From Thelonectria olida (Eukaryota; Ascomycota; Sordariomycetes; Hypocreales; Nectriaceae), in NCBI GenBank assembly GCA_020736575.1, contig JAGPYM010000008.1, positions 1,162,001 through 1,226,000 of the forward strand: a stretch of DNA of 64,000 nt, in the 5' to 3' direction. The position numbers and the translations under genes were made by a program. Below are positions 10,601 to 61,400 of the stretch, one piece after another. Under the pieces are notes generated by a model that saw only the letters and a program-made list of their open reading frames with translations, had not been told where the DNA came from and searched no databases. The stretch's first letter is position 1. Each line of letters opens with the position of its first letter.

Positions 10601-10694
10601 CGAGGCCTTTGGGTTTGGCCATTTGCAGTATGCGCCACTGGGACAGTACGTCAAGCCGAGGAGTGTGATTGATGAGTTTGATGAGCTTTCATAG
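7640..10694 (+). CDS. Hydantoinase/oxoprolinase (HyuA-like) fused to DUF917
   Basis: A fusion of about 1000 aa in two exons (7640-9199 and 9252-10694). The 52-nt intron runs GTAAGT...TCAG, and retaining it ends the protein after 533 codons. Residues 1 to about 520 are a HyuA-type ATP-grasp/actin-fold half: RRLRIGVDVGGTNTDGVILD at the start (Hydant_A_N), TIGTTHFVNAV next, then the second phosphate loop MVVDIGGTTTDVGILLENGF and the CPDIKSIGLGGGSIV region. From about 590, VWSISETDLNWITTGCYILG begins the DUF917 domain, rich in glycine (GTGGGGSPYS). The family hydrolyses cyclic amides such as hydantoins or 5-oxoproline with ATP, but the substrate here is unknown. There is no HyuB-like gene next to it. 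Fungal homologues with this two-domain layout are usually described as hydantoinase/oxoprolinase proteins. Confidence 0.85.
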
Positions 10695-24356: not shown

Positions 24357-25900
24357 ATGGGCTCTCTTGGTCGCACTGCCCCCTTCCGGGTCCTGGACGA
24401 TACTCGTCCCGACGACACCACTTTGCCTGCCTTTATGGTGTCGACCACGAGGGGGTTTCTTCCGCGGATGGACCCCATCGTGACACTTCCCAAGGAATTC
24501 GATGCCTTTGAGTCTATCCTCCAACGGATGCCCGTCAAGACGCTTTCAGGGGAACCAGGTCTGCTTGCTCAGTATAAGTTGGGCGACGTGGTTGACAACG
24601 AGCTGCCCGACTTGACTGATGCCGTGGACAAGTACAAGGATAACCTCCCTCTTCAGAACGCCTTGTACCGTGACTACTCCTTCCTCGCGTCGGCATACCT
24701 GCTCGAGCCATGCCATCACAGGTTCATCAAGGGCGAGCCTTATGGCCTCGCTCGACAGGTCTTGCCAGCTCAGATTTCTCACCCTATCTCACGATGTGCC
24801 GAGATGTAAGTAGCCCACGCATGCCCCGTACCAAGCCGAAGATACATGTCACTAACACGCACGTCAGCTGTGGCTTCAAGCCTTTTATGGAGTATGCCGG
24901 CTCATACGCCTTGTTCAACTATCGCCTGGTTGACCCAGCTGCTGGCATGGACTACTCCAACCTCCGGTTAATCCGAGCCTTTGAGAACGGCTTGGATCCT
25001 TCTTCTTCCGAGGCGGGCTTTGTCCTTGTGCACATCGACATGGTCAAGAACTCGGGGCCCCTGGTAGCAGGAACCGTGAAAGCCCTAGACTCTGCCGCCG
25101 ACACGTCTGCCGACCCCGTCGAGCGGCGCACCAACTTCAACTCAGGCCTCTCGGGCATCCTAGCCGCGCTTCAGAAGATCAACCGCACCATGGAGACCAT
25201 GTGGACCAAGTCGAAGCCGATGGAGTACACCAGCTTCCGCACCTTCATCTTCGGCATCACGTCGCAGAGCATGTTCCCCAACGGCGTCGTCTACGAGGGC
25301 ATCAACGACAACAAGCCCATGTCGTTCCGCGGCGAGAGCGGCGCAAACGACTCCATCGTCCCGCTCATGGACAACCTCCTGCAGGTGCCCATGCCCAGCA
25401 CGCCGCTGACCGAGATCCTGCGGGACTTCCGCGAGTACCGCCCCAGCAACCACAAGGGCTTCCTGCTGCACGTCAAGGAGCGCTCGCTGGAGCTGGACCT
25501 GAAGAGCTACGCGCTGGGCCAGTACGCGCAGCAGCAGGGGTACCACATCTCGGACGAGGAGGGCGACCTGCTGCGCGAGTCTGTCAGCCTGTGGCTGCAG
25601 ATCCTCAACCAGGTGCGGGACTTCCGATGGCGACACTGGTGCTTTGCGCGCGAGTACATCCTGAAGCGCACGTCGCACCCCACGGCGACGGGTGGCAGCC
25701 CGATCGTGACGTGGCTCCCGAACCAGCTCGAGGCGGTTCTCAAGGAGATGGTGGCGGTGGATGGAGTGGGAAAGACGATTCAGGGTAAAGGGCTGGGCAA
25801 GGTGTGCGAAGATATCATGGACGCGGCGTTGCGGCAGCAGGAGACGCTGCGCAAGGAGGTTGACAAGTATTGCGCGGAGAGGGGTGTTGCTCGGCCATGA
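24357..25900 (+). CDS. Indoleamine 2,3-dioxygenase
   Basis: Two exons (24357-24805 and 24868-25900) give 493 aa. The 62-nt intron runs GTAAGT...TCAG with an ACTAAC-like branch point, and the junction restores CAEICGFKPFMEYAGSYALF. The IDO fold is recognisable throughout: RDYSFLASAYLLEP, NYRLVDPAAGMDYSNLRLIR, then FIFGITSQSMFPNGVVYEG, the substrate loop FRGESGANDSIVPLMDNLL and the heme-ligand region REYRPSNHKGFL. In the latter the proximal His falls near residue 345, as in mammalian IDO (346). The enzyme opens the indole ring of tryptophan with O2 to N-formylkynurenine, the first step to NAD+ in fungi. The C-terminal segment is alpha-helical. Third codon positions become much more G/C-rich after about 25180, which creates long shadow frames on both strands. 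The upstream palindromes may control it. Confidence 0.9.
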
Positions 25901-27572
25901 GGAGGAGGATCATGGAAGGATGAAGAAGAATGTCATAAATAGTATTATTGTCAGCAGGTATTTTGAATGTATCTGTGTTGATTGTATGTGCTCTCGTGTT
26001 GTGGGCTTGCAGGTGAGGGGTGTGTACTTTGTGCACAGTCGAGATTGTTGCAGTGCAACCAATCACCCGCATAACCAACACCAAAAGCACTGCAACAGAT
26101 TGAAACAAAACTTGCATAATGGAGCATCAACAGCTGTGAATGTGAAACAAGTTCTATGCAAGCCGCTTTTGACCATTGATGCGAACCCCTATGCGTAGTT
26201 CCGGTGGCTACTACACACATAGGAAGTATTAGGTAGTCTCCAGGTGCAGCAGCAAACGGCATGCAAGCAATTAAGAATTAATTAATTAATTTTTAATCTA
26301 TCCAGGCGCGAACTCGTGGACCCCGAAACCCCAAAGTCCCCTGCACCCAAGTCGATGTCCCGCCCAGCCTAAGAGCAATTGGGAGTCAGCGCCGTGTCAG
26401 AGCCGAATATGGAAGAGAAAGAGGGTGGGAGAAATCCATGATCCTTGTGAAGTTGTGGCGGTGACGGAGGGATGGGTCCCTGGAGGAGGGGAAGCAGTAG
26501 AACTGGAGAGTTATGATGACGGTGAGAAGATAAGTTACTTGTGTTCATCTCCAGTTGACTATTTCTTTCAATGAGAATAATGAAAAGGAGACTACAAAGC
26601 ATGCCCGCCCAAGTTTGAAATATGTTTATTGCTCGCTTGTTTCAAGTGGCGCGATGTATTTCCCGGCAGGGTATAATCAGGGCATGTGAAGCTCAACATG
26701 CACGACACACCTCCTCCTCCTCCTCACAGCTCCCGCGAGAATAAAGAGGATTGCATTGCAGCGGGTTTTATGCATCCAACTGCCTGTATTTATCCGTGCT
26801 TCCTACAGTTAATTTATGTACCCGACCCAACTTGGAAACACCGAGTTGAAGATGAGGTGCGCATGTGGTAGTAAGTAGTACACGTCAACGTGACAACCTC
26901 TCTCAAGTCGTGTGCGCTATTATCCCCGTTATCATCACCACATTCAGAAAAAAAAAACGTTTATTCACACAACAGGCAAATACTCAGGTACCTTATTAGT
27001 TAGTGTCAACAGTCGTGTGGCAGGTGCATGGCCGAGGCCTCCTTCTCACTCCTTCAATGGGCACACGTTGGAAGGAGCCACTCTCTCCCACATTAGCACC
27101 CTTTTAGGGAGGTGCTCAACCAGCCTCGAGTCTTCAACGCACCGAAGAGCCCACCGAGTCTGACATCCAATTCACTCCATCCTCCACTCAGACAAAGACG
27201 AAGACGACTGCGGCATCCTCGGCGCCATTCACCCATCCCTGCATTGCCAGCCAGCCTCGTCTGGATCTGACATGCATAATTCGTTGCGTTCTCGACCGCG
27301 CGAGGGCTTCCATGACTTCCTGTCCTTCGTCCTCTCTTCCACCATACTTCTCCCTCCCACACACAACCTTCTTTCGTCCATGCCCTCGCAACAACCGCTC
27401 CTTCATGCGCCGTTGCACCGTTCCACCCTCGCTTCTTTGTTTGCTCTTTGTAATGGTTTATTCTGCATGCAGCGCGAGTCTGCAATGATGACATGATTGA
27501 TCTGTTGGAATTTGGATCCCCCGCCGCTTTCTCTCGTTAACAAAGAAGACGAAAGACGCTCGCTTTCTCACC
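25901..27572. other. Intergenic region, 1.7 kb
   Basis: 3' flank of the dioxygenase and promoter of the Cys-rich membrane protein. An AT-rich patch with repeated TTAA steps lies at about 26275-26300. The part from 27080 to 27480 is C-rich, like a leader. No gene is recognised. Confidence 0.45.
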
Positions 27573-28853
27573 ATGCGCCTCCTCTTAGCTTGTTCTCTCG
27601 CTTTCGCGCTGGCCACTGCCCAGGGAGCCGAACGATATGGAGCCCTCGACATTGCTCCAAATGACTTGACGCCCCGATTCTTTCTCGACAAATCGAACCC
27701 AGTCGCAAAACGAGGCACCACCTGCGGTGATGACAAACACAGCTGTAAGTCGGCCGCCAATTCCCATCCCGGCACCTCTAACACTCCCTTTGTAGGCCTC
27801 GATGTAGGCTTTGACGAGGGCTGTTGCGACAACGACTCTTATTGTTATATCAACCGCAACGGGACACTCAAATGTTGCCCCATCGGCTCCGACTGCGTCA
27901 ACGACTCCCCATGCAACTCGACCGCTTATTTCTGCACCCGCACTGTCACCTCTGACGGCACCGCCGCGGCTCGCACCGGATGCTGCGGCCGCCATTGCCC
28001 AGAGACAAGCCTCTACTTGTGTGCGAACAGCCTCGGCGGTGGCTGTTGCTCCTACGGCTCCGAATGTCGCGCCAACGGCGATTGCGCTGCTCCCAAAACG
28101 ACCTCAGCCTCCGCTCTACTGACGCCCGTTGCCGAGGGGTGCACTACCTCCCAGTTCAAGTGCGCCGATGGCACAGGGTGCTGCGATAATTGGCAACATT
28201 GCACCCAAGTGAACAGCACCGGCTACTGCGCCGCAGGAAATCCATCCGAGTCCATCTCCGTCGTCCCCGATCCAGACAGTGGCGGTCTTTCCAACGGGGC
28301 AAAAGCTGGCATCGGCGTCGGTGCCGTCGTCGGTACTGGCATCATTGTCGGCGCTCTGACCTGGCTGTGCATCTCGAAGCGCCGCCAGCGCCAGCGTACA
28401 ATCAGCGCACACCAATACAACCTCGATAGCTCCGGTACCGGGGGCCATGATAGTGTACCTGTAGATGGAATGACGGAGGTCTCAGGTCCCGAAAGTCGGC
28501 GCCAAGGCCTAACCCAGGACTACTTCGGCCCCGATGCCGTGGCGGGGCCGTTCACGGAAACTACTGGTGTTACTTCATTTGACACCTCGCCGGGACAGAC
28601 TCGGGCGGTGCCGACACGACCAGATGGGCCGGGTGATATTGCCGCTCCCGTTGAAATCGACTCGACAGCCAGGGAGCATACTGACGGCGGAATGCTATCG
28701 CCCCATTCAAACTCTAGCATCCAGGCGACACCACAGTCGGAAACCATCGACGGCCGCTTCGAATTATATGGATCGGAGCAACGAGAGCCATTATCAATCG
28801 TCCCGACACCTCAAGAAAGTCCCATTATCAAAGATGTGCGACCGGCAGCGTGA
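27573..28853 (+). CDS. Cys-rich single-pass membrane protein, hypothetical
   Basis: A type-I membrane protein. The signal peptide is MRLLLACSLAFALATAQ. Next comes an extracellular domain of about 200 residues with many paired cysteines (GCCDNDSYCYINRNGTLKCC, TGCCGRHCPETSLYLC, GGGCCSYGSEC, GTGCCDNWQHC). A glycine-rich linker follows (GGLSNGAKAGIGVG), then one transmembrane helix (VGTGIIVGALTWLCI) ending in SKRRQRQR, and a Ser/Thr/Pro-rich cytosolic tail of about 150 residues. Unspliced it is 426 aa. A typical fungal intron signature at 27745-27795 (GTAAGT, CTCTAAC, TAG; 51 nt) would remove 17 residues in frame, giving KHSCLDVGFDEGCCDN and 409 aa. I think the spliced form is more likely. The layout suggests a cell-surface sensor or wall-interacting protein, but I know no ligand and no family name. 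Confidence 0.72.
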   Translation: MRLLLACSLAFALATAQGAERYGALDIAPNDLTPRFFLDKSNPVAKRGTTCGDDKHSCKSAANSHPGTSNTPFVGLDVGFDEGCCDNDSYCYINRNGTLKCCPIGSDCVNDSPCNSTAYFCTRTVTSDGTAAARTGCCGRHCPETSLYLCANSLGGGCCSYGSECRANGDCAAPKTTSASALLTPVAEGCTTSQFKCADGTGCCDNWQHCTQVNSTGYCAAGNPSESISVVPDPDSGGLSNGAKAGIGVGAVVGTGIIVGALTWLCISKRRQRQRTISAHQYNLDSSGTGGHDSVPVDGMTEVSGPESRRQGLTQDYFGPDAVAGPFTETTGVTSFDTSPGQTRAVPTRPDGPGDIAAPVEIDSTAREHTDGGMLSPHSNSSIQATPQSETIDGRFELYGSEQREPLSIVPTPQESPIIKDVRPAA

Positions 28854-29176
28854 GAGCAGAGTCATGAGATATGATAAACCGAGGGCATTGTCCTTTTATT
28901 TTACTAAGAACGCCTAATATCCTGTTCATACCGAAGAACCATCCAACTTCTCTCCAGAGAAGAAATCCATACATAAGAGACGATTACTAGGACCGACTTT
29001 CAAATTTGCTCAGAACTCCATGCGAGAAAACCTGACAGGGGGAAAAAAAAGAAAAAAAAAAAAGACCACCAGAGTTCCGTAAACGCCGAGGACATGGTCA
29101 TCCGAAAAGAGAAGATGATGAGGAAATGCAATGACAGAGGCCAAGGAAATGACGATTGTTGCTCCAATTAGACGCC
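28854..29176. other. Convergent 3' flanks
   Basis: Short A-rich stretch (about 29041-29063) between the Cys-rich membrane protein (+) and Cdc14 (-). No gene. Confidence 0.5.
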
Positions 29177-30142
29177 TCAGCAAACGACACCGCCAAAGGG
29201 AGCGCAGTTTCGGAGATCCTTGACAAGATCCTCCACGCTGCTCAGGTGCTGGCTCAACAGCTCCTGTTTCTCCGCGGTGGTGAGGGTGAAATCGCCTTCA
29301 GCGGGCCCCGACTTACTGCGAGTCTCGGAAGAAAAGGCACCGGCAAGCTTGCTGGGGCTACGCTGGAGCATACCGGGAACTGAGTCACGCTGGTCGGCGC
29401 GGGGAATAGAAGGCATCTCGGGCATGAGGTAGAAGTAGAGGAACTCAACCAGCTTAAGCTTGACCTCTCGAGCAGTAGATCGCGATTTAAAGAGGGAGGT
29501 AACAGTGAGGAGACCATCAAGATCTTCGAAGGTGCGGGTGTTGCGAGGGGTATCGATGAGGGCAGTGACGAGAGTGAGAAGAGTCGCGGACTGGATGGCA
29601 GGACAATTGAAAGGCTCGAGGAGATCAAGGAGGAGCTGTGATTGTAGTTGTGAGTAAGGAGTTTATGGCGCAAGTCTAGCGGCGTTGCAATTGAGGCTTG
29701 TTCAGTCTGTACTTACATTCATGTTTTGTTCCCGAGAGAAGAGAGACTTGCTAGGAGGGTGCAGCAATAGAGTTCCCTGGATGAGGTCGAGAGCGCTGAG
29801 AATCAAGAGATCATTTTGACCATCACTGCCCTTGGCCATGAGGCGGTCCAGAGTGCCAATCAAGCGCATGGCGACGTTCCATTCGAAACCCTCCTGCAGC
29901 TTGAAGAACTCGCGGAAGGCAGGGTCCTGGCTGAGCTCGCCAAGGTCCTTGCTTTCCGAAAGTGAGGCTTCGTTGTCATTCCTATCTGGGTCTCGGCCGC
30001 GGTTGGCTCGGTCGGCGGCGTTTGGGTTGGAGAGACAGATCTGGGCGAGAAGGCCCTCGACTTGGCGGAGGCCTTTGCGGACCTTGGGGCCGTCGTAGGA
30101 AGACAGGTTGTCGAATGCGAGAGAAAGAAGTGACTCCATCAT
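29177..30142 (-). CDS. cdc14: Septation initiation network protein Cdc14 (fission-yeast Cdc14 family)
   Basis: Two exons on the minus strand (30142-29717 and 29635-29177) give 294 aa. The 81-nt intron runs GTAAGT...ACAG and falls between codons (SREQNMN|LLLDLLEPFN). The conserved N-terminus is MESLLSLAFDNLSSYDGPKV followed by RKGLRQVEGLLAQICLS. The central part has FREFFKLQEGFEWNVAMRLI and ALDLIQGTLLLHPPSKSLFS. The second exon has FNCPAIQSATLLTLVTALID and REVKLKLVEFLYFYLMPE. This is the SIN scaffold that binds the kinase Sid1 and helps trigger septum formation. It is unrelated to the Cdc14 phosphatase of budding yeast. The protein is all-helical, probably armadillo-like, without membrane segments. 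Two ATG codons lie in tandem at the start, and the second (30139) is equally plausible. Confidence 0.9.
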
Positions 30143-32375
30143 GGTGACTGTGTGTTTGTGCGAGTGTGTGCAAAAAGAGAGTATATTGGTAGTTGATGGT
30201 GTGGGCGAGGCCTGACAGGTGATGGTTTGTTTACGACGGATAAGAGAAAACGATAAGACGACGAGGGAGCAAAACAAGCAGCGAAGCACAATGATGAGAC
30301 CGACTCGAGTGGTAAAACAGGTTAACAATTGAAGAGAATGGAAGAGAAAAACTGGGTATCAAGCAGCAATGGAGTGGCCGAGCCCAAACTTTTGGAAGGG
30401 ACTGGAGAAGGAAGAGAAGGGCGGCCTAGTTTGAGGTCTCGAGAGGCGAGTTTATGTTGTAAGTGCATGCGCAAGTGCGAGTGCGTAGCGATTTCCCCGG
30501 CAACGAGCTGAGTAGCGCCAATCATTTTTCGAGGGTCCCGAGCGACACGCCCGGAAAAAGCGACCGGGGTGCCAGGTGGTGATTACAGTGGGCTCTCCAG
30601 GGCTCTTTGGCACTACCTTGGCTGGCGGCCTTCTGGGCAGCTTCGGGAAGGAAGAGGTGCCCAGGTGACCCTCACTGGTAAGGTAACCTATCCCCGGGAC
30701 ATCCCCGCCTTGGGGGCGTTGGGTCGGTTGTTTTCGTGAGCGTCCCATGAGTGGAGTCGGGTTAGCAGATTGGTGATGAGTTGGGAACGAAAGCGAGCGC
30801 CTCGAGAACAGAAGGCATGTGATTGACGAGGAGGAGAGATAGGGCCTGATGATAGCTGCCTGCATTGACTATTGAAGAGAGCTCCGTCGCTAGACGCCAC
30901 AACTACAACAAAGGACTAGTTATTACCAAGAGACGACGTGTGACCAGAAACACCATGCCCAACTTATTGACTACATGATGAATTCATCTAGGACTGGGAT
31001 TTAGCTGCTGGTGGCCAACAAACCCCGATGAGTTGGTGGTGGGCTGAGGTGAGGTGGTGTGGTTTGCCCCAATGCCGCCGCATCAGATGAGAATGAGATG
31101 AGCTTCATGAGATATGGATTGCTTGTGCTTTTGACCCCTGAAATGCAATATAGATGTCGTATATAAAGTGCTTGTGGCTTGTCGCACTCGCACTGGCACA
31201 TGCCATTTTGTTGTTGAAGCCGTTATTTGTGCTCACTTCACTTCTCACCAGCCATTGCTTTATCGTCTCCAAAGCTACCTGTCCATCGGCCATCAACTCC
31301 AAGAATAGGTAAGACTGACAGTTCACTCGCCTTTCATTGCCCGCCCTCCGATTCGGTCGGAACCTACGGACCTCTCGCATCGAGCGTGTCCGTTCGCATG
31401 CATTAGTTATGTCCGCGAGGTTGCATGAGCATAGGTTGAATGGGAGAACGGAAGACCCGCTCGCTTGGTGATGAAATCATGGTTTTTCCCTTTTCATTCT
31501 GGCCAACTCCCTGGCGCCTCCGCGGTGACCCGTGGTTGATGCTGTTTGGATCGGGGAACGTCACCATGGTATCGTCAGCTGCCATCGGAGCCTAGGGCCC
31601 GGAAAGCGAACCCCTCATGCCCCTCCTCCTCCAACGACACCAGCATCAAGATATCGCGAAGATGCAGTGCAACCCTTTCTAGGCCAACATCAGGACTCCT
31701 CCCCGCACCGCGCCGCACCCGCACCTCGCATGTGCGCTACATCCTTCGACGAACAGGCCGTCCCTATCTCTGCCCTACCTTTCATCAACACGTATTCCGA
31801 GCAGGCGGGAAAGTCCTAAGCCAAGGAACTTAGTCGACTACGTACGGCCTAGCTAACTACCCCGCTATGGACGAGCCTCCATTTTTTGGCCCCGTCCCGT
31901 CTCCAAATCCTTTCCATTCCATCCCCTCCCCTCCCCTTGGGCGGCCTTCACATGACGACGATCCCCATCGCGCCTCTCGCCCTGCCACGCTCGCTTTCAC
32001 CCAAACTACTTAATTAACCTTTTCGCCCTCGGTTGCAAGCACGGGGCGAATCAATCCATTTCTTGCGCTGCTTCACTCATTGACTCCCTTCTGCGACAGT
32101 TAACGACGCACCACGATCCCTCTTGCGACAGCTTGGCCTGTGTCCTCAGCCAAAGCCAGCTTGTGATAATAGCTGCCTTGGCGAAACAACCACCAAACCT
32201 CAACCACCACAACCTGGAACAGGCTTCCATCTGTTATATTCATCGCTCCCCGTTCGGTTACAGCTTCTTATCTACCCAGATCTGCTAGCTCCGCCTCCTC
32301 CTTGCGTTGCCGCATTCCTACAAAAACTCCACCACCAATACCAATACCAACACCAACACCAACACCAACGTCTCC
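30143..32375. promoter_or_regulatory. Divergent promoter region between cdc14 and GGPP synthase
   Basis: 2.2 kb. The right half from about 31850 is C-rich and is probably the long leader of the synthase gene. It ends with a hexanucleotide repeat at 32334-32369. No gene is recognised between the two. Frames up to about 140 codons show no family. Confidence 0.45.
32334..32369 (+). repeat. Hexanucleotide repeat (ACCAAY)6 in the synthase leader
   Basis: Six tandem units, two ACCAAT then four ACCAAC, ending 7 bases before the ATG of the GGPP synthase. The repeat is in frame with the gene and free of stops, but no ATG precedes it in that frame. Confidence 0.85.
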
Positions 32376-33611
32376 ATGATCCCCGACCAGAATCCCGAGC
32401 CCTCCGCTCTTTCCTCCATGCTCTCCTTCCCCCCCGGCGAAATGGAAAAGATGCCTGCCAGCAACATGAAAACACCGCTTCAATCTCCCACCCACATCCC
32501 TCCTCGAACCTCCAGCTCCGGCGCCGCCCTCACAACACCTACAAAATCCGCCATGCGCTCCGTCTCCGAAGGCGACTGGATCAGCCCCAAGCAGCGCTCC
32601 CCCAAGGCCGTCAAGTCTACCAGCTTGGGCCTTTCCTTTGGCCCCGGCATCCACGGCTCAAACACCCCTCCCGACCCCAACAGGTACGCCCACGACGACC
32701 TCAACTTCACAGCTCAGCGCTCGTGGACGGATGAGAAGGAGAAGGTCGTGCGCGGCCCCTTTGACTATGTCATCAGCCACCCCGGCAAGGACTTTAGGGC
32801 CCAGCTGATCGGTGCCTTCAACACCTGGCTCAATGTTCCCAAAGAGAGCCTGGACGTCATCACCCACGTCGTTGGAATGCTCCACGAATCATCTTTGCTC
32901 GTCGACGATGTCCAGGACTCGTCCGAGTTGCGCCGCGGCTTCCCCGTCGCCCACAACATCTTCGGCGTCGCTCAAACCATCAACTCGGCCAACTACATTT
33001 ATTTTTGCGCCCTGCAAGAACTCCAGAAGCTCAACAACCCATCAGCCATATCCATGTTTGCTGAGGAGCTCGTCAACCTTCATCGCGGCCAGGGCATGGA
33101 CCTCTTCTGGCGAGACACTCTCACCTGTCCCACCGAGGACGACTATCTCGAGATGGTTGGCAACAAGACCGGCGGCCTATTCCGTCTCGGAATTAAGCTG
33201 ATGCAAGCCGAGTCCACCTCTGGGATCGACTGTGTGCCCCTCGTCAACCTCGTCGGGCTCATCTTCCAGATTCGAGACGACTACATGAATCTCTCTTCCA
33301 AAGAATACAGCAACAACAAGGGCATGTGCGAAGACCTAACGGAGGGCAAGTTTTCCTTTCCCGTCATCCATAGCATCCGCTCCAACCCGACCAACCTGCA
33401 ACTCGTCAACATCCTGAAGCAGCGGACCTCGGACATCCAGGTCAAGCGCTACGCGGTTGCGTACATGGAGTCCACCGGCAGCTTTGAGTACACTCGCGAG
33501 GTCCTCGCCATCCTCGTTACTCGCGCCCGCGCAGTCGCTGAGGAGATTGACCAAGGTCGTGGCCTCACTAAGGGTATCCAGAAGATCCTCGACAAAATGG
33601 CCATTCCCTAA
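32376..33611 (+). CDS. GGS1: Geranylgeranyl diphosphate synthase
   Basis: A single-exon gene of 411 aa. The first 115 residues are a disordered Ser/Pro extension common in filamentous fungi. The trans-isoprenyl diphosphate synthase domain follows: [16 protein letters not shown], then the first Asp-rich motif DDVQD (about 177-181) in [48 protein letters not shown], and the second motif DDYMN (about 301-305). [12 protein letters not shown] carries the conserved KFS. DDYMN instead of DDYLD fits GGPP synthases of the AL-3/Bts1 type. The enzyme adds isopentenyl diphosphate to make C20-PP for carotenoids, ubiquinone side chains, diterpenes and Rab/Rho prenylation. No terpene cyclase or P450 lies nearby, so this looks like the housekeeping copy. 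A T15 run follows at 33646-33660. Confidence 0.94.
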
Positions 33612-38700: not shown

Positions 38701-38958
38701 CCTATGAGCCACGAGCACAAGGCACCGGCTGGGCCTCGACCAGCGAACTTCTCTCCGACGCGCTTGTGAGACTTCCATTCCATCTCTCCTCCCACCTCCG
38801 ATAATCCGGCATCGTCCATCATCTACCGACGCCTTATTCCTCCACACCGTCACCGCACATGGCCAAGCTGACCTCAACCCCATAGCAACAGGGGAACCGC
38901 CTCCAGTCCTCAACCTCCTCTACCTACCTCGAATCCGGGGCTCACTCTCAACGCCCCA
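35727..38958. promoter_or_regulatory. Divergent region between the peroxin and the Pom1-type kinase, 3.2 kb
   Basis: No convincing gene. The part from about 38040 to the kinase ATG at 38959 is C-rich and probably a long 5' leader. It contains several short open frames, including a 182-codon frame starting near 38043 that lacks any recognisable protein feature, so upstream ORFs are likely. Confidence 0.45.
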
Positions 38959-41900
38959 ATGCTTAGCGCATCTGCCTCCAACAACCATTCCCTCTTCTCC
39001 TTCGGCCGAGAAGGGGATTCGACTCAATTAGGCGAATCAAACGGCTCCTTCGATTTCCTTCCCTCGGTCAGCTTCGATGACCTCCAGAGTAGCCTCGAAT
39101 CCGCCTCGACCGAATTCAAACTGGCCCAGTTTCCCTCCCCCCCTGGTGAAGGAAGCATTCTTGAAGCACATGGCTTGAGCGAGGCCAAGATGTCCTCCAA
39201 GGCTCAAGGTGCCCCTTCTCAAAATGGCGGTATCGCTCGATCTGGTACTTCAGCTACCAACCGACCATCGCGATCTGGTTCTCTCTTGCGACGACCTAGT
39301 ACGTCAAGCAGACAGCCCAGTGTCTCATCCGTTGCCAATTCGACCACAGGCCCAATCGATGGCACCAGCGGGTCCATCACCTCGCGAACTCGTCGCCAGA
39401 GCCACTACCCACCAGTGTCTCACACTGTGGCTGCTGCAAAACCACCTCGCAAGTCGATCGGTCCAGGAGTCATTGCTGATGGGGAATACGGAGCTAGAAA
39501 TACGCAGAAAAGGCGTCCCAGTCTTTTGTCAGATAGCACCCCAAGCGGTTCGACGAGAACGTCGATGGATGGAGGCTCCACCTCTTGGCTGGACGGAACG
39601 CGACACTTTTCAAATTCTCGAGCAGCCAAAGCAAAGTCAGTGCAGCCGCCTCCACGCCCCAGCCAGGCCAGTTTGGGCCTTGGAAACAACCTCACCCCAG
39701 AACATAACCGGCTCTCGACGCTCGCTCCGCGATCGCCACGTGTCGGGGGGCGGCTTAGCACTCCATCCTCCACGGGCAAGAGAGCATCCATAATGCCTGG
39801 AAGCCATCATTCTTCTCACGCCACCGGCCTTGGAGCGAGGACGATAAGTCCAACTGATACCCGGAGGATGAAGCGACTTTCAACCATGCCAGCATCACAA
39901 AACACTCCTACCTCCACCAATGTCCCTCCTCCTCCGCCTGTGTCAATGGATACTCGAGCCGAATCCAGATCCCCTTCTATGATCCCCAGAAAGGCCTCGG
40001 GCACGCCCTCGTCATCGAGAACTACGCCAGATATTAGCCGAAAGTCATACAGCTCTGGGCTCTCCGTCAATTCATCAAACAGTTTCAACACGGCGAGAAC
40101 TTCGATCGGATCAATCCAGCCCCGCCTGTCCCAGTCATCATCTACATCACGACTACCTGCGCCGAAACATACAACTGTACATAATCCGATGCCGGCGGAT
40201 GAAGAAGAAGATGTCCCACCAGTCCCCGCGATTCCAAAGGCATACGAATCTCCAAAGGATGCTCCCACGGAGACATACTTCATGGAGAAGAAGAAGACTG
40301 CTTTGAGCAATATGGATGCTTTGGGCTCTAACTCTAACGCGACCGGAAGCATCTCCATGCCAGTATTCCCCGAGCCAACCAAGCTTCAACGAAGACCCAG
40401 CGCCCGCAAAAGCTACGTACCGACCAGTGTCGGCATCGACACCGAGAATAAGGGTACACCTCAGGGCAAGAAACATTTGCAACCTTTGAGATTACCTCCT
40501 CTCAATCTGGGCCCGTTGAGTACTCCAACAACTAACAAGATCGCTGCATTGCAAGAATTCAGCAGCGCAGGACGAAGCAACACGCTGAGCCCACCACCCT
40601 CACGCCAGTTGCCCAAGACCCCCACCACTCCGATGACGGCATCGAAGAGCTCTTTCTTCTCTAGGAGCCGACATGGTGATACGCCCGAGTTGCCGTCGCT
40701 CCGAAGTAGCAGCTCTGTTCATCATACTCACCTTTCTCCCACACCACCCGACAATAGCTCCACCGACTCATCACTAGGCTTCAAGGACCTCGATCACAAG
40801 AACAGCATCTCGCCTTTCTTATCATCATCTCTTCCCAAAGGAGGACTGGAACACGGTTTTCTAAAGAGATCCAAGACTGGCGGTGATTTCACCACAATCA
40901 ACGGAAACCTCTTCCAAGATCGTGCTCCCCAGAAGCCTGCTGGACCACGCGCACCTAAGACAGAGAAGCCCACACCCAAGACTTCACCTCAAGACACCCC
41001 ACTGGAAGAACCCCAGACTCCTTCCTCGATTAGTTCGATCCGCCGAAAGCTCAGTCTATCATGGAAACGTACAAACTCCAAAGGTAGTCTTGTGGGCTCC
41101 CAAGATGGGGTTGAGGGAGCGTCCGCACCGCCCCCGCCCCCGCAGCCAGAGACCATGCCTCCCCCCCAGCTTCCTGTATCTGCGACTACTCACAACTTCG
41201 CAAATGCTAAGCAGCCCAGCCCGACTCCAGCCAACAAATCAACTGGAGGATATCTTGAGTCTAGGAGGCGGAAGAGCTCAGCTGGAACCCTGAACACCTT
41301 CATCAACCACGACAGAACCAAGAGTGACACGTGGGGAAATAAGAAGCCCACAGTCGATCTCTCCACTATGCCTGTTGGCCGCAACGCCTCTGTAATGCAA
41401 AAGATTCTTCGCCCTAGGACGGCCTCGAGCACATCAAAGAGCCAAGACCCATGGAATGGCGATCTCGACAAGGATGACATGGTGGCTGAAGACGAAATGG
41501 CTAAGCTGGGTTCTCGACGAAAGGAGACCGAGATTGCGGCTAGAACTCTGGATGCTCTGAGAAAGAGAGCCACGCCAAAGGAACGAGTTGGGCCTCACGA
41601 GGCAATTCGTATTGCCATGCTCAACATTTATGAACGAGGCGAGATCGTCGACTACAGCGATGTGTACTTTTGTGGAACCCAGCATGCTCATAAGGTCGTT
41701 GGTGACCTACAGTCTAACTCACCCAATTTTGGCTATGACGATGAGCGTGGTGACTACACCATCGTACCTGGAGACCACCTTGCATACCGTTATGAGATTA
41801 TTGATGTTCTTGGAAAGGGTAGCTTTGGGCAAGTGGTCCGATGCATCGACCACAAAACCGGAGGTCTAGTTGCCATTAAGATCATCAGGAACAAGAAGCG

Positions 41901-43096
41901 ATTCCACCAGCAAGCTCTTGTCGAGGTCAACATCTTGCAGAAGCTACGCGAATGGGTGAGTTTGCTCAAGTCGGACAATTAGATGTCTTTAATGCTAACA
42001 CCTCGCGCAGGATCCCAACAACAGACATAGCATGGTCAATTTTGTCCAAAGCTTTTATTTCCGAGGACACCTTTGTATATCTACCGAGCTGCTGGATATG
42101 AATCTTTATGAACTGATTAAGGCGCATGCGTTCCGGGGATTCTCAATACGTATCATCCGGCGCTTCACCAAGCAGATTCTCAGCTCGCTGAACCTTCTTA
42201 AACAACGCAAGGTGATCCACTGCGATCTCAAGCCAGAGAACATTCTTCTTCGCCATCCTCTGCACGCGGAAATCAAAGTCATCGACTTTGGTTCCAGTTG
42301 CTTTGAGAATGAGAAGGTGTATACGTACATCCAGTCTAGATTTTACCGATCCCCCGAAGTCATTCTTGGTATGACGTACGGACTGCCTATCGATATGTGG
42401 AGTGTCGGATGTATCTTGGCCGAGCTGTATACGGGTGTCCCAATCTTCCCAGGAGAGAACGAGCAAGAACAGCTGGCTTGCATCATGGAAGTCTTTGGCC
42501 CTCCCGAGAAACACCTGATTGAGAAGAGCACCAGGAAGAAACTCTTCTTTGACTCGATGGGCAAGCCACGCCTGACTGTGTCATCTAAGGGTCGCCGACG
42601 CCGACCCTCTTCAAAGACTCTACAACAAGTTTTGAAGTGCGATGACGAAGCATTCTTGGATTTCCTGGCTCGTTGCCTCCGATGGGACCCGGATCGACGA
42701 ATGAAACCTGAGGATGCTATGCGACACGAGTTCATCACAGGACAGAAGATGCCTGTGCCTTTGCCTCGTATGCCTACACGAGAGTCTTCGCCAATGAAAA
42801 GACACAACACCATATCGGTTCCGCGGCCCCTTCCTGAACCCCCTGGATCCAGCCTCAAAACTACTGCATCGATGCGATCAGGAGTCAGCCCCCACAAGCC
42901 TGTCTCAGGTGCCCCCCGAAGAGTGTCTGGTAATACGGCAGCCATGCCCCAAGGCGCCAACAAGCGAAGCAGCGCAGGCACCAGCGGCACCACAATGGGA
43001 ACCAGCAGTCTTCCTAGAGCGGCTGGGAGAAGTGTGAGCGCCAAGCATGACCTCGCGGCTGCCGGTGCAACGGTCGCCATGAATCGACGCGGCTAA
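38959..43096 (+). CDS. pom1: DYRK-family protein kinase, Pom1 type
   Basis: Two exons (38959-41955 and 42011-43096) give 1360 aa. The 55-nt intron runs GTGAGT...GCAG and falls between codons (LREW|DPNNRHS). About 940 residues of Ser/Pro/Arg-rich disordered sequence precede the kinase. The DYRK homology box DDERGDYTIVPGDHLAYRYE leads directly into the domain (about 945-1240). The glycine loop is GKGSFGQVV, the ATP lysine is in VAIKI, and the catalytic loop HCDLKPEN is near 1069. DFG (IDFGSSC) and the activation loop YTYIQSRFYRSPEVILG near 1101 follow, with the second Tyr autophosphorylated in this family. The tail is Ser/Pro-rich. In fission yeast Pom1 forms polar gradients that restrain Cdr2 and place the septum. 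In filamentous fungi a role in polarity and septation is inferred. With cdc14 this window has two septation regulators. Confidence 0.92.
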
Positions 43097-53869: not shown

Positions 53870-56800
53870 ATGCTGTATGGCCAGTTCCATCGATCCTTGA
53901 CAGAGACGGATGTTCTTCCACTTGCCGTTTCACCCATCGCTTTAAGGCCTTCTCTTCTTCGAGCCTACTCAGCCAAGACTCTTCCTGCTCTCACTACAGG
54001 CTCACCTCCTGAAAATCCTGTCACCAAGAAACCCAGCTCGCTTCGTTACGTTCCTGGGGACACGAGGAAAGAAACATCGAACATGTTTTCCACCCTCTTC
54101 AGTCACACCCAGGCCCATCGGCCCGAGGGGATAGAGATGGTGGCTGGGGACTTCGATATCACTCCGCCATCAAGTAACCGTCCCTCTCTTGAGATATCTT
54201 GCAATAACGATGAGGTCCCTGGTACGACGAAGAAACCATCTACAATTCCAGTTACGGACTCCCGAAAAGTTCTGCTCAAGACATCCGGGAGTTACCCAAA
54301 GATGGAGAAGAAGGGTGTTTCAACACCGCCCATTCAGAGGCCAACTGTCTCGACAAAGATGGCGTGCTAGAAGGCCCATATGGAGAGACCGAGAGACAGC
54401 AATGAGTTACCGAAATCCGGTATACTTTCTCCGGCCTTGTGTGCGCCTTCATCTCCCAACGAGTTGGTCGATAGCGAAGACGCTGCTCTGCCATGTTCGT
54501 CTTCTCTTGGCATCACCGAACTTGGTTGCAAGAGAAAGACGAATGATATGCATGGGCGAGAACCCCATTTATGGCCACAAATCATCGGACCCATTCCAAA
54601 GCATTCTGGTCATCGACTGTCGACAAACGGACCGTTACGCACTCAGTCTCTCCCCACGGGCGTCACCAGACGCGAGACATGCGACCTTTTTGAGAAAAGA
54701 CAACGAGCCAAATCAGAGCAAAGAGAAAAGATATCGAGTCATGTCTCGGTTGCATCATGCACTAAGTCCTCTCCGGAAGAACCACCGAGGCGTCACACAT
54801 TTCCACCATCTACTAATCCAGTCGAACCCAAGCATTCGAACGACGTCGGTTTCATACAGAAAGCACAAAATGCGGCTACCCCCACGTCCGACAAAAATCA
54901 TGGGAGTACTCATGAGCTCGCTCTTGAAGGCCCTATTATTGGAGCAAAGAGTGGCTACGAAGGTGACTCTTCTCCGACTCGATCATCCCTGGAGACGCCC
55001 AATACAATGCCTCAAGCAAGTTCTCGCTTTCTCCAATCAACTACGAATGGGACGTCTGAAAAAGATCAGTTCACAATAGATGTTACGTCGAGTCCTGATA
55101 GCGCTTGTGCTACGTCTAGACCAGAGGCAAGATATTCAGAAGTTGGCATGGGCATCTCACAGAAGGTCAATTTATACCGTCGTCATTCCGTGAACTCTGT
55201 GCTCGATTATGTGCGCGCAACCCAGTGGTTCCAAGGGCTTCCTCGGACACCGGAATCCCATCAAGCTCCAGAGACTGAGGTTTCAGATCAACCACAACCA
55301 TTAAAGAAGCCAACGCAAAGCGATCGCCGGCTTTCAGAATCAACTCCTCTGGAAAATGAGACTCGTTCCTCGAAGAGCAGCTTGTCATAGTTTGGCAAGC
55401 TTGACCCATTGATGGATGGAATATCTTTCACGCGGGCTGTAAAGGACTTGCAGAGGCTTATGAATGAATCAATTGCTCCCGCAGCTCAGGTAATTGCCCA
55501 CCCTGGAACTCAGAACGGTGTCCAGTTCAACCAGCCATCCATCAATCTACAATCGCGTCGTCAGAATGCAACATATTTCGATGTGGCCAAGTCAAAATCT
55601 TCATATAATGAACGGCCAAGCGATCGTGAGAGTGCTTTCAATAGCCCTAAGGATGGTCCAGATAGGCTGTTTGCACCAGTCCGGCCAACATACACACATG
55701 CTGCAACCTATGCTGATACTACTAAGCGCCCTCGGTTGTCTGAAATTGTCGAAACCTATTCTGCGCATTCCGATGGTCTCCGAACCAGAACTCATCACCC
55801 TCAATTACGCCGTCCATCTCAGGCTATGGAACAGATGATGTCACAAGTTCCTGATCAGAAGTTGTCCAACTTCAGTTCATTCACTGGGGACAAAGGCTTA
55901 CAAAAGCGGCCAGTGGCTCCCCAAGGAACGCACAGTGGTCGGAGCACACCAGGAGAAGAGACAGTGCCTGAGCAGAACAATGCAGGCCGGAAGATGCACT
56001 CTGAACGTGGCATCAGTTTGCGTCGCAGGTCCCATGTCAGCCTACGAAACGTTCAAGGGTTCAGTCTTCCCAAATCTCACAAACGGCAGCCAATTGCCAG
56101 AGATTGGTCGCCCGCCCGCAAGAAATTCGTCGCAGCAGTGGCCTGTCTAAGTACAGCATTGATCGGAATGCTGTTGGGCATATATACTGGTCTCGTTCCT
56201 TCGATCCAGTATTATATTGTTGACCAGTCTCATTTTGCCGTCCATGGAAACACAGGTTGCTTTCTTGGCTTAGCATTGCCCACTTTCTTTCTTTGGCCGT
56301 TGCCCCTCCTCCATGGCCGAAAGCCGTACATCATGGGAAGCTTGACACTTGCAATGCCCCTTATGTTTCCGCAAGCGATTGCCGTCAACGCACCGAGACT
56401 AACGCATACGGCTTCCTGGAGAGCAATGTTGATTGCTTCGAGAACATTGATGGGTGGCTCTCTCGGATTCGCTAGCATGAACTTTCACTCAATATTGACC
56501 GATCTGTTCGGGTCGTCTTTGATGAGTGAGTGTCCACACCAAGAAGTTGTTGACCAATTTGACGCCAGACGGCATGGAGGCGGAATGGGTGTGTGGCTCG
56601 GCATCTGGACCTGGTGCTGGGTTGGTTCTCTCGGAATCGGCTTCCTCATCGGAGCTGGAATCATCGACAAACATCCCCCTATCTGGGGCTTTTATATCAG
56701 TATCATGCTAATTGCCGTGGTGCTTCTTCTCAACGTAGCCTGCCCAGAGGCTCGTCGATCTGCTTACCGGCGATCAGTTGCTGAAGTCAGAACCGGAACA

Positions 56801-58165
56801 AACATCTCGCGGCGTCTTGCTCGTGGAGAGATCATGATGCACCGAGTCAAGACAGGACCGAAATGGTGGGGTGAGGAGGTGTATCATGGAGTACTTCTCT
56901 CCATGGAAATGCTCCGTCAACCTGGCTTCGCTGTTTTGGCCCTATATGTGGCTTGGATCTACGCCCAGGTCGTGCTCACCATCATCTTGCTCGGTTCTTT
57001 GGCTTCCCGATTCTATCACCTAAGGTCCCCTTACGTTGGCCTTCACGTCGCCGCCATAACTCTGGGGGCTTTCTTAGCCATTCCCTTTCAGAAAGCGAAC
57101 CTCTTCTCCAGATCTCGAAATTCCCAACTCAACCTCAATCGGCTGACTCTTGACCAGAAGGTTGGGTGGTCATCGCACCTTGTTCGACGGGCCATTTTCA
57201 CAATTACGCTGCCACTGGCGGCCTCCAGCTACGCTGCCGTTTCGTCTGGCCCACCACTCAGTATTGCGGCCCCGACAGTCTTTGCCTTGTGCATCGGATT
57301 TCTCTCTTGTCTGGCAATTTCAGAATGCAGCGGCCTGATCATGGAGACCTTTGACACTTCAGATCTCTCCCCGGGGATGGTCGGTCGGCAACGAGATGAG
57401 GCTGGGCAAAGCCAAAAGAAGACGAACTACTCCTCCTTTCCACGCGCAACATCGGGTTTTGCCATCATACATGCTCTAGCATTCATCCTCGCAGCGTGTG
57501 CAACCGCCGCCGGCGGGCATATGACCCGCAATCTTGGTCAACGTGTGGCCTCGGGTGTCGTTGCTGCCATTTTGTTCGGCTTGACGATGTTGCTGTTGCT
57601 AATTCTTGTTCGTTTCAAGCATGTGCCCATTATTCCTCGTTCGAAGTCAGCTGAAATGGATCGATTGACTCAAATTCGCCGAAAGTCAACACAACGTCGA
57701 GCATCAATGCCATACGACTTGCGAGCCTTGATAGAGGAAGATCTCGCATGGCGCCCTGCCATGATTGGGAACCCCATTGGCAAGACTCGCCGTATGAATG
57801 TCCTAGAGCTTGGGCGCATGACTCGCTGGGAGGATATTCGGAGAAAGAACAAGCTCATTGATGAAGGTGCTCATCTGAAATGTGCGACTTTGGATCAGGG
57901 TCTGGACGCGTTGGATGCTGCTTTAGAGGATCACATGGAAGAACTGCGAAGGTCTCAAGGCTTGTTCACCATGGGCAGTGGAAAGGGCAAACACGGCGAT
58001 CGACACCATCGTAGCGATCGGAGTAGCGACAAAACGCCCGACGTTGAACTCGAGTTCCTGGACTTTGGAACGCCAGGTGGCCACTCTCAGCATCGGCAGT
58101 TCGCAGGTCGAAGAGAAGGCATCAGGGGTCAAACGCTCACAGAGGAGATGAAAATGAGCCGGTAG
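53870..58165 (+). CDS. MFS-domain membrane protein with two in-frame TAG codons (AMD1-like; probable A-to-I edited gene)
   Basis: One reading frame of 1432 codons is interrupted only by TAG at codon 167 (54368-54370) and codon 507 (55388-55390). The three open parts (53870-54367, 54371-55387, 55391-58165) share the same frame. Codons 1 to about 745 form a Ser/Pro-rich, basic, disordered cytosolic region. From about 750 to 1255 I count 12 hydrophobic helices, for example KFVAAVACLSTALIGMLLGI, WLGIWTWCWVGSLGIGFLIG, FAVLALYVAWIYAQVVLTII and SGVVAAILFGLTMLLLLILV, an MFS fold. The tail of about 170 residues is charged. No intron with usable donor, acceptor and phase spans either TAG. If both are edited to TGG (Trp) a protein of 1431 aa results. 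Unedited mRNA gives only 166 residues. A routine gene model would start at ATG 55412 (917 aa). Editing is inferred. Rivals are pseudogenisation, readthrough or an internal start. The transported substrate is unknown. Confidence 0.75.
54368..54370 (+). other. In-frame TAG 1 of the MFS gene (codon 167)
   Basis: Context TGC TAG AAG, and the next in-frame ATG is at 54380. The A (54369) follows a U and precedes a G. A small hairpin is possible, ATGGC (54359-54363) with GCC plus AT (54374-54376, 54378-54379; C54377 bulged), leaving a 10-nt loop that contains the TAG. It is much weaker than the hairpin at TAG 2. Confidence 0.6.
55379..55401 (+). promoter_or_regulatory. RNA hairpin presenting in-frame TAG 2 (codon 507) in a 7-nt loop
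   Basis: AGCTTGTC (55379-55386) pairs with GGCAAGCT (55394-55401): eight base pairs, one of them U-G. The loop ATAGTTT (55387-55393) holds the TAG at 55388-55390. The A at 55389 is the third loop base and follows a U. A tRNA anticodon loop also has seven bases, with U33 before position 34, the site deaminated to inosine. The fit to a mimic of that substrate is exact in loop size, position and neighbouring U. Function is inferred. Confidence 0.7.
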
Positions 58166-58471: not shown

Positions 58472-61400
58472 TTATTGAACATTTAGGAAAAGGTCGCGAC
58501 CCCGTCGTGTCGGTGTCAGTGTGGGCACCCATGGCGTTGGCCCCGAGTGTCTATTCTCGCGAGATGCACCAGGTGCCGGGTCATGTACCGGTGCTTGATA
58601 TGTGCGTTCGTCACGCTGCCAGGGCGTGCGGTTCGCCTCGGTGGGAATGGCTAGTTTCGCCGCGCGTTCGTTGCCGACACGCTTGGCGAGGAGGGACGGG
58701 TTGGGTTGTAGGGTGGTGTTGGCCTGGGCGTGCTGCTGGGAGGAGGCTGCGCGGAGAGGGTGCCAGTTGTGTTCGTAGGCTTGGTGGGAGTGTCGCTCAG
58801 GCCGAGGGTTAGGCTGGGACTGTGGTTGGCGGTATGGCGGCTGGGGGAGAGGGCGGACGGATGGGTATTGGGGGGTCGAGTTTGAGTAGCGGTGCTGGCG
58901 CTGGCGCTGAGATGGGCGGGTGTTGAGGGGTTGAGGGTAGGCAGGGGCGAAGAAGAAGGGGGGAGCTCGAGCGCTTTGATTCTCCTTATCGGAGGAATGG
59001 GTTTCGGGTGGTGAGGGAGACGGGTCGACAAGACGCATCGTTGGAGAGCCTGTTCGCTCGAGGCCGGGGTTGACCATGGGCTTCCGCGGAGGCTTGGGAA
59101 CCCAGTTGGAGGCGACGGGGGCCTTGATAGGGCCGACGGGAGGGTCTGTTGTTCCCAGTGTTGGGCTGGGTTGGCCTGGAGGGTAGAAGACCATTTGTCT
59201 TGAGGTCGGTGGAGCCAGGTTCTTCTTGTTGGGGTCGATCTCCTGCAGCGCGCTGAGGGCGCTGAGGGCAGGCACGCTGCTTCGTCTTGGGTCCTTGGGA
59301 GGGATGATGGGATAGGCGACGACGTTGTTGCGGCTGCGGTTGGAGTGCGGCGACTCCTGGACGGGAGACAGACTGGCCTGCTGCTCGAGAGCGGGAGAGG
59401 GATCGATGATTGTGCCGTCAGACGAAGTGGTGATTGTTGTGCAGGACGTCATGTCGCTGCCGGCAGAAGTGCGATTTCGAGTTAGGTTCCTGGTCATTGA
59501 GTGGCGTCTCGACGAGTGGCGGCGCATCTTGTCGTTGGCCGGCATCTTGTCATTGACCTGGGGCGCCATGATGGGCGGCGGGGTTGGCTGCGCACGAGGA
59601 CCCATAGGCTTCTGAGAACGCGAGCTGAGAGATCGGTCGGGAACAATGACAGCAGCGGGCGCAAGAGTTCTCTTCGGAGCACTGTCATCGGACACAGACG
59701 AGACAGAGGCGGTGCCGTCCAGCGTTTTGGTGGTATCGACGTTGGAAGACTCGCTTGATGGGACGTAGATGCTGTCTTTGGGAAGCGGCGGTGGTGCGAC
59801 GGTCACCTGTGAGTATACAGACATGCGGGAGGCGTGCTTTGGGTCGCCGAGTTTCCAGTTGCCGTGCTCGTCAGCGATGTAATAGGTGTTGTTGCTACCC
59901 GTGATGGGTGTCGGCGCCCAGACCTGGGCGGTGGGAGACACGGAAGGGCGTCCATCTTCCTCAAACTCGGTCATTGAGCTGTCACGCTTGTGCATGTTTC
60001 GCATTTCAGCCGCCGTCGGGAGATTCGGCTCGGGGATCTGAAGTTTGGGAACCGGAGGAGGCTGATACGTGGCAGGCGAGGACGCGGTAGGGCCAATCTG
60101 GAGTGGAGGGAGTTGAGGCGGCCGTGACTGACGCATTGGCTGAACCTGTTCCGAGACTCGGGGCCATACACTCTCGCGCTGGGGAGGAGATCGGTTGCCT
60201 GGCACGTTGAGAGGGAGGAACGGGAGGACAGGCTTGGCAGGGAGGAGTCTGGACATGCGTCTCGAGGGCGTCGAGGTCTGCGTATGAACCTGGCTTGGGA
60301 CGCGGCTGTTGCCAGGCGAGATGGCCAGGCCTATGGTGTTCGGAGAGAGCATATCGGTGCCCAGGGCGGGCGCGGGGGCAGGACGCGGCGGGAAGGGGTT
60401 CATTGTCCTCTGGCTACCGGGGCCGGGATTCCAGGAGCTCCCGCCGGCGCTGTTCGAGGGATCGGGCTTGTAACCCCAAGTATCCCGAATTGGGAGGAAT
60501 CCTGACTTCATCTCGGGATATCTCTTCTTGCGCATGCGTCTCGCAAGAAGAATGGCACCAATTGCAGCACCGGCCGCTGCGAGAACACCCACAGAAATGC
60601 CAGCGACTTGCTTCTGGCTGAGACCATCGTCATTGCCGTCGTCCTTGCCTGCTCCTGCTCCAGCTGCATCTGAGCTTGTGGTTTCTCCCGCTGCTGGGGA
60701 TGTCGCCGTCGTTGGTCGCAGGGTAATATCAGAGCTCATGGGATCGTAAGTCGAGGATTCGTCCAGATCGAGAGTCTCTGTGGAAGAACGCGGCTCGGTT
60801 GTCGTTGTGGATGATTCGGACGTGGTCGGAAAAGGAGGCGCCGATGAGGTTTCCATGACCAGTGTTGTTGGCAATGTGCTAAACGATGAAAGGGTGACGG
60901 AGGGCGTCTCTGTCTTGGTCTTCGCCGTCGTATGTCTTGTGCTTGTAGTAGTGGTGGTGGTACTCTCAGTCGTGTATCTATCCGCCGTCGTAGATTGAAT
61001 AAAGGTGGTGGGTATAGTCGAAAATCTCCTAGTTGCCGTCGTCACAGGAGGAAAGCTCACGACGCCTCCAGAGGTTGGAATGACGAGTGTCGCAGTAATG
61101 ACGGTGTGAGTAGGCTCGACAGCATCTGGCTGGTCGTCACACATGCCATATGCGCTGTATACAACCTCATCTGCCTTCTTGTCAGCCCAACAATACCGAC
61201 ATGTGATCCCAAGCACAACATACCCCTTGCGTCCGTCTGCGAACAATATCCAATTGATCTCTCGGCCACAATGCATTGCAGAGCGCCCTCGCCCATGGTA
61301 TATCCGGCGGCGCCAACTTGAGAACATAGGCATTGCAACGAGCCGTCGCAGCCTGAGCTGCCGTAGCTGGTTTCAATGAAAGAAGCGAAACATTCCCGAG

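Follow-up and report, generated by a model that had tools for sequence, protein, structure and literature searches.

The closest described counterpart of the gene reported here is AMD1 of Fusarium graminearum (FGRRES_10094), which encodes a protein of 1386 amino acids (aa) whose major facilitator superfamily (MFS) domain follows one premature stop codon, a TAG at nucleotides (nt) 631-633 (codon 211) (PMC5496914). This TAG is edited in 97.6% of perithecial transcripts, and an intron predicted in the gene was exposed as false by RNA sequencing (RNA-seq) (PMC5496914). Ascus wall integrity and the discharge of ascospores depend on the gene; an allele with an uneditable TAA does not function, whereas one with TGG does (PMC5496914). 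The present analysis concerns an AMD1-like gene with two in-frame TAG codons, TAG1 and TAG2, in a 64,000-nt stretch (hereafter the window; G000:C144:1162001-1226000, contig JAGPYM010000008.1, from an assembly of 52.5 Mb in 165 contigs) of the genome of Thelonectria olida, a sordariomycete of the family Nectriaceae in the order Hypocreales. A preliminary description, made from the letters of the window alone, had proposed that these stops are recoded by adenosine-to-inosine (A-to-I) editing of the messenger RNA (mRNA). We consider it probable that both TAGs are edited to UGG by a sexual-stage Tad2-Tad3-Ame1 complex and that the full-length protein of this likely AMD1 ortholog is made only in fruiting bodies.

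The T. olida frame is similar in length to F. graminearum AMD1 (1431 versus 1386 aa), has the same long homologous N-terminal tail with a TAG within it, and likewise places the MFS domain after the stop. It differs in carrying two TAGs (codons 167 and 507) instead of one at codon 211, and editing is proven in F. graminearum but predicted in T. olida. Two further systems were used for comparison. At kinase subdomain IX of PUK1 (FGRRES_01058) the codons are TAG TAG in F. graminearum, TAG TGG in Neurospora crassa and TGG TAG in F. verticillioides, all of them edited in perithecia (PMC4817773). In PUK1 and these orthologs the stops are TAG only and gene models were misled, as here, and F. graminearum PUK1 also has two stops needing correction in one gene; its TAGs are in tandem at a Trp-Trp (tryptophan) kinase motif, whereas those of the T. 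olida gene lie 340 codons apart in a variable tail. The transcription factor gene CHE1 of F. graminearum has one premature TAG that is edited in hyphae (PMC11169179). This TAG follows an unstructured N-terminal region, its target A lies in a predicted hairpin loop and the models of some species start downstream of the stop, all as here; the encoded transcription factor, the single site and the hyphal editing set CHE1 apart from the T. olida gene.

The open frame and its two premature stops

The features of the gene are listed below with positions in the window.

53870..54367, forward strand: first open part (part 1), 166 codons with an ATG start, holding the conserved N-terminal block MFSTLFSHT...GDFD.TP
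54368..54370, forward strand: TAG1, codon 167, with predicted editable A54369 in the context CUAGAAG
54371..55387, forward strand: second open part (part 2), 339 codons, a Ser/Pro/Thr-rich tail, probably disordered
55380..55400, forward strand: predicted RNA stem-loop presenting TAG2, in which either 8 base pairs (bp) close a loop of 5 nt or 7 bp close the 7-nt loop AUAGUUU
55388..55390, forward strand: TAG2, codon 507, with predicted editable A55389 in the context AUAGUUU
55391..58162, forward strand: third open part (924 codons), which contains the membrane domain of the MFS type
55412..55414, forward strand: the ATG that comes first in frame past TAG2, where the 917-aa open reading frame (ORF) P0001 listed for the contig begins
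56126..57610, forward strand: 10 hydrophobic segments (membrane domain) from a crude hydropathy scan, all downstream of TAG1 and TAG2
58163..58165, forward strand: terminal stop TAG

The coordinates and the 166/339/924-codon layout given in the preliminary description proved right: over its 1431 codons (53870-58162) the frame has two TAGs and no TAA, TGA or frameshift. In 1000 sequences simulated with a first-order Markov model of the same composition as the frame, chance in-frame stops averaged 48 with a minimum of 27, and each of the remaining five frames of this stretch contains 45 to 67 stops.

Since the membrane domain lies wholly past TAG2 and the ORF listed for this gene is the 917-aa P0001, translation could in principle start at ATG 55412 and yield a 917-aa transporter, with the upstream parts serving as a leader or persisting as a dead N-terminus and with no need for editing. 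We regard this as quite improbable: 27 ATGs (in any frame) precede ATG 55412 in the stretch from 53870, part 1 keeps a conserved block, and an internal start is argued against because the uneditable AMD1 allele fails in F. graminearum although the MFS domain there is also downstream of the TAG.

Family identity

The 924-aa part was used as query and gave 866 homologs at E<=1e-3 among 7994 scored candidates; the counts of relatives given below rest on the 120 of these homologs that were listed. The named ones include MFS or 'polyamine transport' proteins from Fusarium, Dactylonectria and Trichoderma and from further Hypocreales. Among the matches listed, the top one with full coverage shows 77% identity, and P0072 (Mariannaea) reaches 85% over 62% of the 924-aa part. 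A search of the T. olida genome itself, in which only the best candidates were scored, gave one match, that is, a single copy.

The F. pseudograminearum model P0016 (1314 aa, from a cluster of 24) was used as a stand-in for the F. graminearum AMD1 protein. At this length it falls 72 residues short of the corrected F. graminearum AMD1, as would be expected if a false intron hides its TAG. With P0016 in this role, the gene resembles published AMD1 in its homologs, its length, its architecture and the presence of a TAG in the N-terminal tail; the link to AMD1 drawn in the preliminary description fits, and on sequence comparison the gene is likely the AMD1 ortholog of T. olida.

The family assignment was taken from the homologs because neither the Pfam search (no MFS match) nor the PDB sequence search (no match) with the 924-aa part was informative. 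The MFS_1 model (PF07690) was found in three scanned orthologs, above the cut-off in P0004 and below it in P0002 and P0016. A Flavi_M Pfam match of the 924-aa part was below threshold and was set aside as chance, and an AlphaFold2 model of the 917-aa ORF (33 sequences) had a mean pLDDT of 41.6, too low for use.

Conservation on both sides of the stops

Full-length relatives were drawn from the search with the 924-aa part because the N-terminal 560 residues as query matched only the ORF of the window itself and one Tolypocladium protein. Part 1 was matched by 30 and part 2 by 27 of the 120 listed relatives (E<=1e-3), and the block MFSTLFSHT...GDFD.TP...S.RPSL was found in most of 27 aligned relatives. 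Judged by these matches, the stops have sequence of one and the same gene on either side.

The alignment comprised T. olida and 101 of the 119 other listed proteins, namely those of at least 900 aa. Among columns with at least 80% conservation T. olida keeps 10/10 in part 1 and 5/8 in part 2. With the threshold raised to 90% the counts are 3/3 and 3/4, respectively, and 22/24 columns are kept in the linker after TAG2. In the MFS part 326 of the 339 columns with at least 90% conservation are kept (0.962, versus a median of 0.988 in the other proteins; T. olida ranks 25 of 102 from the worst). Evolutionary rates were compared as protein-level residuals relative to MFS divergence, a measure based on gene models in which some introns may be false. 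Neither part 1 (rank 31 of 56 from the lowest residual) nor the linker after TAG2 (rank 98 of 102) showed excess change.

Neither stop appears to occupy the F. graminearum site. By its position TAG2 is a different site, because it lies ~300 codons further along a frame of similar length. TAG1 is probably different as well, because the F. graminearum site is ~53 residues past the last P0016 residue before the alignment gap, whereas TAG1 is ~6 codons past the matching T. olida residue. Some relatives have Trp-Pro in that later stretch, and in T. olida the TGG at codon 235 stands in such a motif; the alignment around codon 235 is loose and does not place the Trp-Pro motifs in one column.

Introns over the stops

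Candidate introns that combine a 5' site scoring 5/6 or higher with a branch motif and YAG were absent over both TAG1 and TAG2, in line with the preliminary description. When the 5' site was relaxed to 4/6, one weak phase-0 candidate over TAG2 appeared (55365-55484, GTTCCT...CCGCAG). These sequence signals support the view that neither TAG would be removed by an intron.

That unrecognised introns nevertheless take out one or both TAGs is suggested by this weak candidate and by alignment gaps, from which the models of P0016, P0019, P0022 and P0023 seem to skip the stretch. We give this explanation very little credence: the inferred introns of the PUK1 candidate in the same genome (see below) score 5-6/6 at the 5' site and carry a CTNA branch, a combination absent from every span over TAG1 or TAG2, and the intron predicted in F. 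graminearum AMD1 was false according to RNA-seq (PMC5496914).

Sequence context and RNA structure at the two sites

Edited sites in F. graminearum favour C/U at -2, U at -1, A/G at +1, +3 and +4, G at +2 and a position in hairpin loops, and loops count more where the neighbouring bases are poor (PMC9600606). Both T. olida TAGs have U at -1 and their target A in a predicted hairpin loop; the remaining neighbours are favourable at TAG1 (CUAGAAG, 5/6 preferred neighbours) and poor at TAG2. The predicted hairpin-loop probability of the target A is 0.999 for TAG1 and 1.0 for TAG2, and values of at least 0.99 were reached by 61 of the 953 TAGs in the window, these two included.

The predicted stem at TAG2 is strong, with 8 bp and a 5-nt loop at -10.1 kcal/mol, a value reached by 9 of the 953 TAGs (itself included), and the 61-nt segment around it has a z of -2.31, with 5 of 200 shuffles folding equally well. 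Opening of the last A-U pair (-8.0 kcal/mol) gives the 7-nt loop AUAGUUU, in which the target A is third of seven, behind a U. In our own comparison this predicted loop has the U33-A34 geometry of a transfer RNA (tRNA) anticodon loop on a perfect stem. A34 is the usual substrate of Tad2-Tad3, and fungal mRNA editing has similar preferences, for loops and U at -1 (PMC11156358); TAG2 differs from that tRNA substrate in being part of an mRNA and in that its editing would need Ame1. The anticodon-like loop at TAG2 offers a test of the extent to which loop shape can replace sequence context for Tad2-Tad3-Ame1.

Base errors in the assembly at one or both TAGs would also account for the stops, but it would take a strong coincidence for two independent errors both to produce TAG, both in predicted hairpin loops, and to do so in a gene of the AMD1 type, and we find this explanation scarcely credible.

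Other candidate targets and components of the editing system

Kinase-domain matches in the T. olida genome numbered 144, of which 40 had internal stops. Twenty-one of these 40 loci were read, and 20 of them hold a TAG, out of 25 TAG-holding loci. By eye, most internal stops were at match edges or in intron-like inserts, and a stop took the place of a kinase residue at two loci, L021 and L046.

L046 (G000:C78:2436810-2437748, reverse strand) reads RCDW*SIGIILFECLYGHTPF, with the codons TGG TAG and matching sequence on both flanks, and its stop lies at the DWW motif of kinase subdomain IX. Its relatives include 'agc ndr kinase' proteins and none named PUK1; the motif, its position and the family lead us to infer that L046 is the PUK1 ortholog, and its TGG TAG is identical to the state in F. 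verticillioides. The public T. olida model P0123 skips the stretch with this TAG. Among the 120 listed relatives of L046 (P0123 included), 19 read DWW through, 17 end exactly at CD/CDW, 5 break off before that point and in 79 DWW is skipped or missing. The N-terminal part of L046 has a second in-frame TAG (...EETS*APGRD...); this stretch is probably a true intron, because P0123 omits it.

A candidate RID gene (DNA methylase, PF00145; G000:C35:741338, L025:1839) has an in-frame TAG between 221 and 449 open codons, in the same 7 nt (CUAGAAG) as TAG1. A phase-0 intron candidate ends on this TAG, which is possibly intronic. The rid ortholog of F. graminearum is a published edited-stop gene (PMC4817773).

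Three DUF726 loci were found, of which L024 (C144:458970-460020, on the contig of the window) is Ame1-like. With residues numbered as in F. graminearum Ame1, by a constant offset counted from the GxGxG motif, L024 keeps M500 V501, E546, R548, D589 and H629 and has Gly in place of the catalytic S531; the other two loci have AH and SL at 500-501. In F. graminearum Ame1, MV500-501 is essential for Tad3 binding and S531 is dispensable (PMC11087585). By eye, locus L010 is Tad2-like, with HAE and PCxxC. The TAG at the PUK1 site, the RID TAG and the Ame1-like gene support the editing interpretation of the preliminary description.

Evaluation of the editing interpretation

If the two TAGs are edited, Tad2-Tad3-Ame1 would deaminate A54369 and A55389 in perithecia, translation would place a Trp at each of codons 167 and 507 in the disordered tail, where Trp would be tolerated, and the 1431-aa protein would reach the ascus membrane as in F. 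graminearum. Because both sites need editing, the full-length fraction would be approximately the product of the two editing levels. A mycelial transcript, if any, would stop after codon 166. The 166-residue fragment that the preliminary description expected in asexual cells is only one of the possible outcomes without editing, both TAGs lying before the whole membrane domain.

Several observations weigh against editing. Trp was found at the TAG1 or TAG2 column in none of the 101 aligned relatives; 64 relatives have a gap at TAG1, 3 have a gap at TAG2 and 70 have Ser at TAG2. The pattern of restorative editing, with relatives carrying Trp at the stop, was thus absent from the alignment (0/101), and because no relative carries Trp at these columns, editing would put a new Trp into the disordered tail and not restore an old one. 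Part 2 evolves fast (rank 4 of 80, counted from the lowest residual); the closest relative P0002, whose ORF reads through the TAG2 region, is likewise fast there (rank 3). A neighbour score at the level of TAG1 is common, being met or exceeded by 191 of the 953 TAGs in the window, while TAG2 has 2/6 preferred neighbours, the lowest class (109/953). The TAG1 stem is weak, with an innermost helix of +4.4 kcal/mol, and the segment around it folds no better than shuffles (z -0.90). The crude hydropathy scan gave 10 rather than 11-12 hydrophobic segments. The intact 12-helix MFS part claimed in the preliminary description thus has only partial support: 326/339 conserved columns are kept and the ortholog P0004 passes PF07690, but fewer than 12 segments were counted and the 924-aa piece has no MFS Pfam match.

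Elsewhere in the genome, Tad3 was not identified. SPO22, RhoGAP and Ras-family genes were searched because edited stops are present in such genes of F. graminearum: SPO22 gave 2 matches, the main one without a stop and a small one with 1 TAA, neither with a TAG; RhoGAP gave 14 matches without a TAG; and the Ras family gave 60 matches, some of them with stops. The kinase match L021 (G000:C41:16564-17127, forward strand, on a 19-kb contig) has one TAG and one TAA and looks decayed, so broken genes do exist in this genome.

The gene could on these grounds be a recent pseudogene in which two nonsense changes followed loss of use, as could happen in a lineage that seldom reproduces sexually, and in which no editing occurs. 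The presence of two stops, the poor linear context of TAG2 and its place at a codon where relatives have no Trp, the fast part 2 and the decayed-looking L021 all fit such a history. Set against them are 4.3 kb without frameshift, TAA or TGA, the retention of 326/339 conserved MFS columns and 10/10 N-terminal columns, the position of both target As in predicted hairpin loops, and the editing-type stops kept in the PUK1-like and RID genes. We therefore judge a pseudogene unlikely and prefer editing at both TAGs.

Whether editing-dependent stops are adaptive switches or accidents retained through a neutral ratchet is still debated. Stops at other codons than in the proven target, not standing for Trp and doubled, would favour selection for the switch itself. 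A more specific proposal, which we put forward tentatively and would sooner doubt than accept, is that selection keeps AMD1 locked by a stop while the lock moves: new editable TAGs would arise at non-Trp codons anywhere along the tail and old ones revert, with here two in series and TAG2 presented to the tRNA deaminase in a near-copy of an anticodon stem-loop. If this were true, the stop and not the tryptophan would be what selection preserves.

Edited stops, the editing of AMD1 and double TAGs (in PUK1) have been published; what appears new here is a pair of separated stops in a known editing target. In the open-licence literature no paper was found that brings together A-to-I RNA editing, a pair of premature stops and perithecia, a search that did not extend to the supplementary tables of the F. 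graminearum papers, which may hold a gene with two separated stops. Likewise, among the matches listed, no open-licence paper has T. olida in its title or abstract. Genes of this kind are missed by annotation, as P0123 skips the PUK1-like TAG and the listed 917-aa ORF begins after both TAGs.

Other features of the window

No tRNA gene was found in a scan of the 64-kb window. On the opposite strand a 966-codon open frame (58472-61372, reverse strand) begins ~300 bases past the end of the AMD1-like gene. A protein kinase gene lies in two frames at 38872-43096 (forward strand) and is probably split by an intron near 41980. Hydantoinase-like and S-Me-THD-like ORFs adjoin each other in the regions 7577-10694 and 24674-33611 (forward strand), and in the same regions and on the same strand an indoleamine dioxygenase-like ORF lies ~6 kb from a polyprenyl synthetase ORF.

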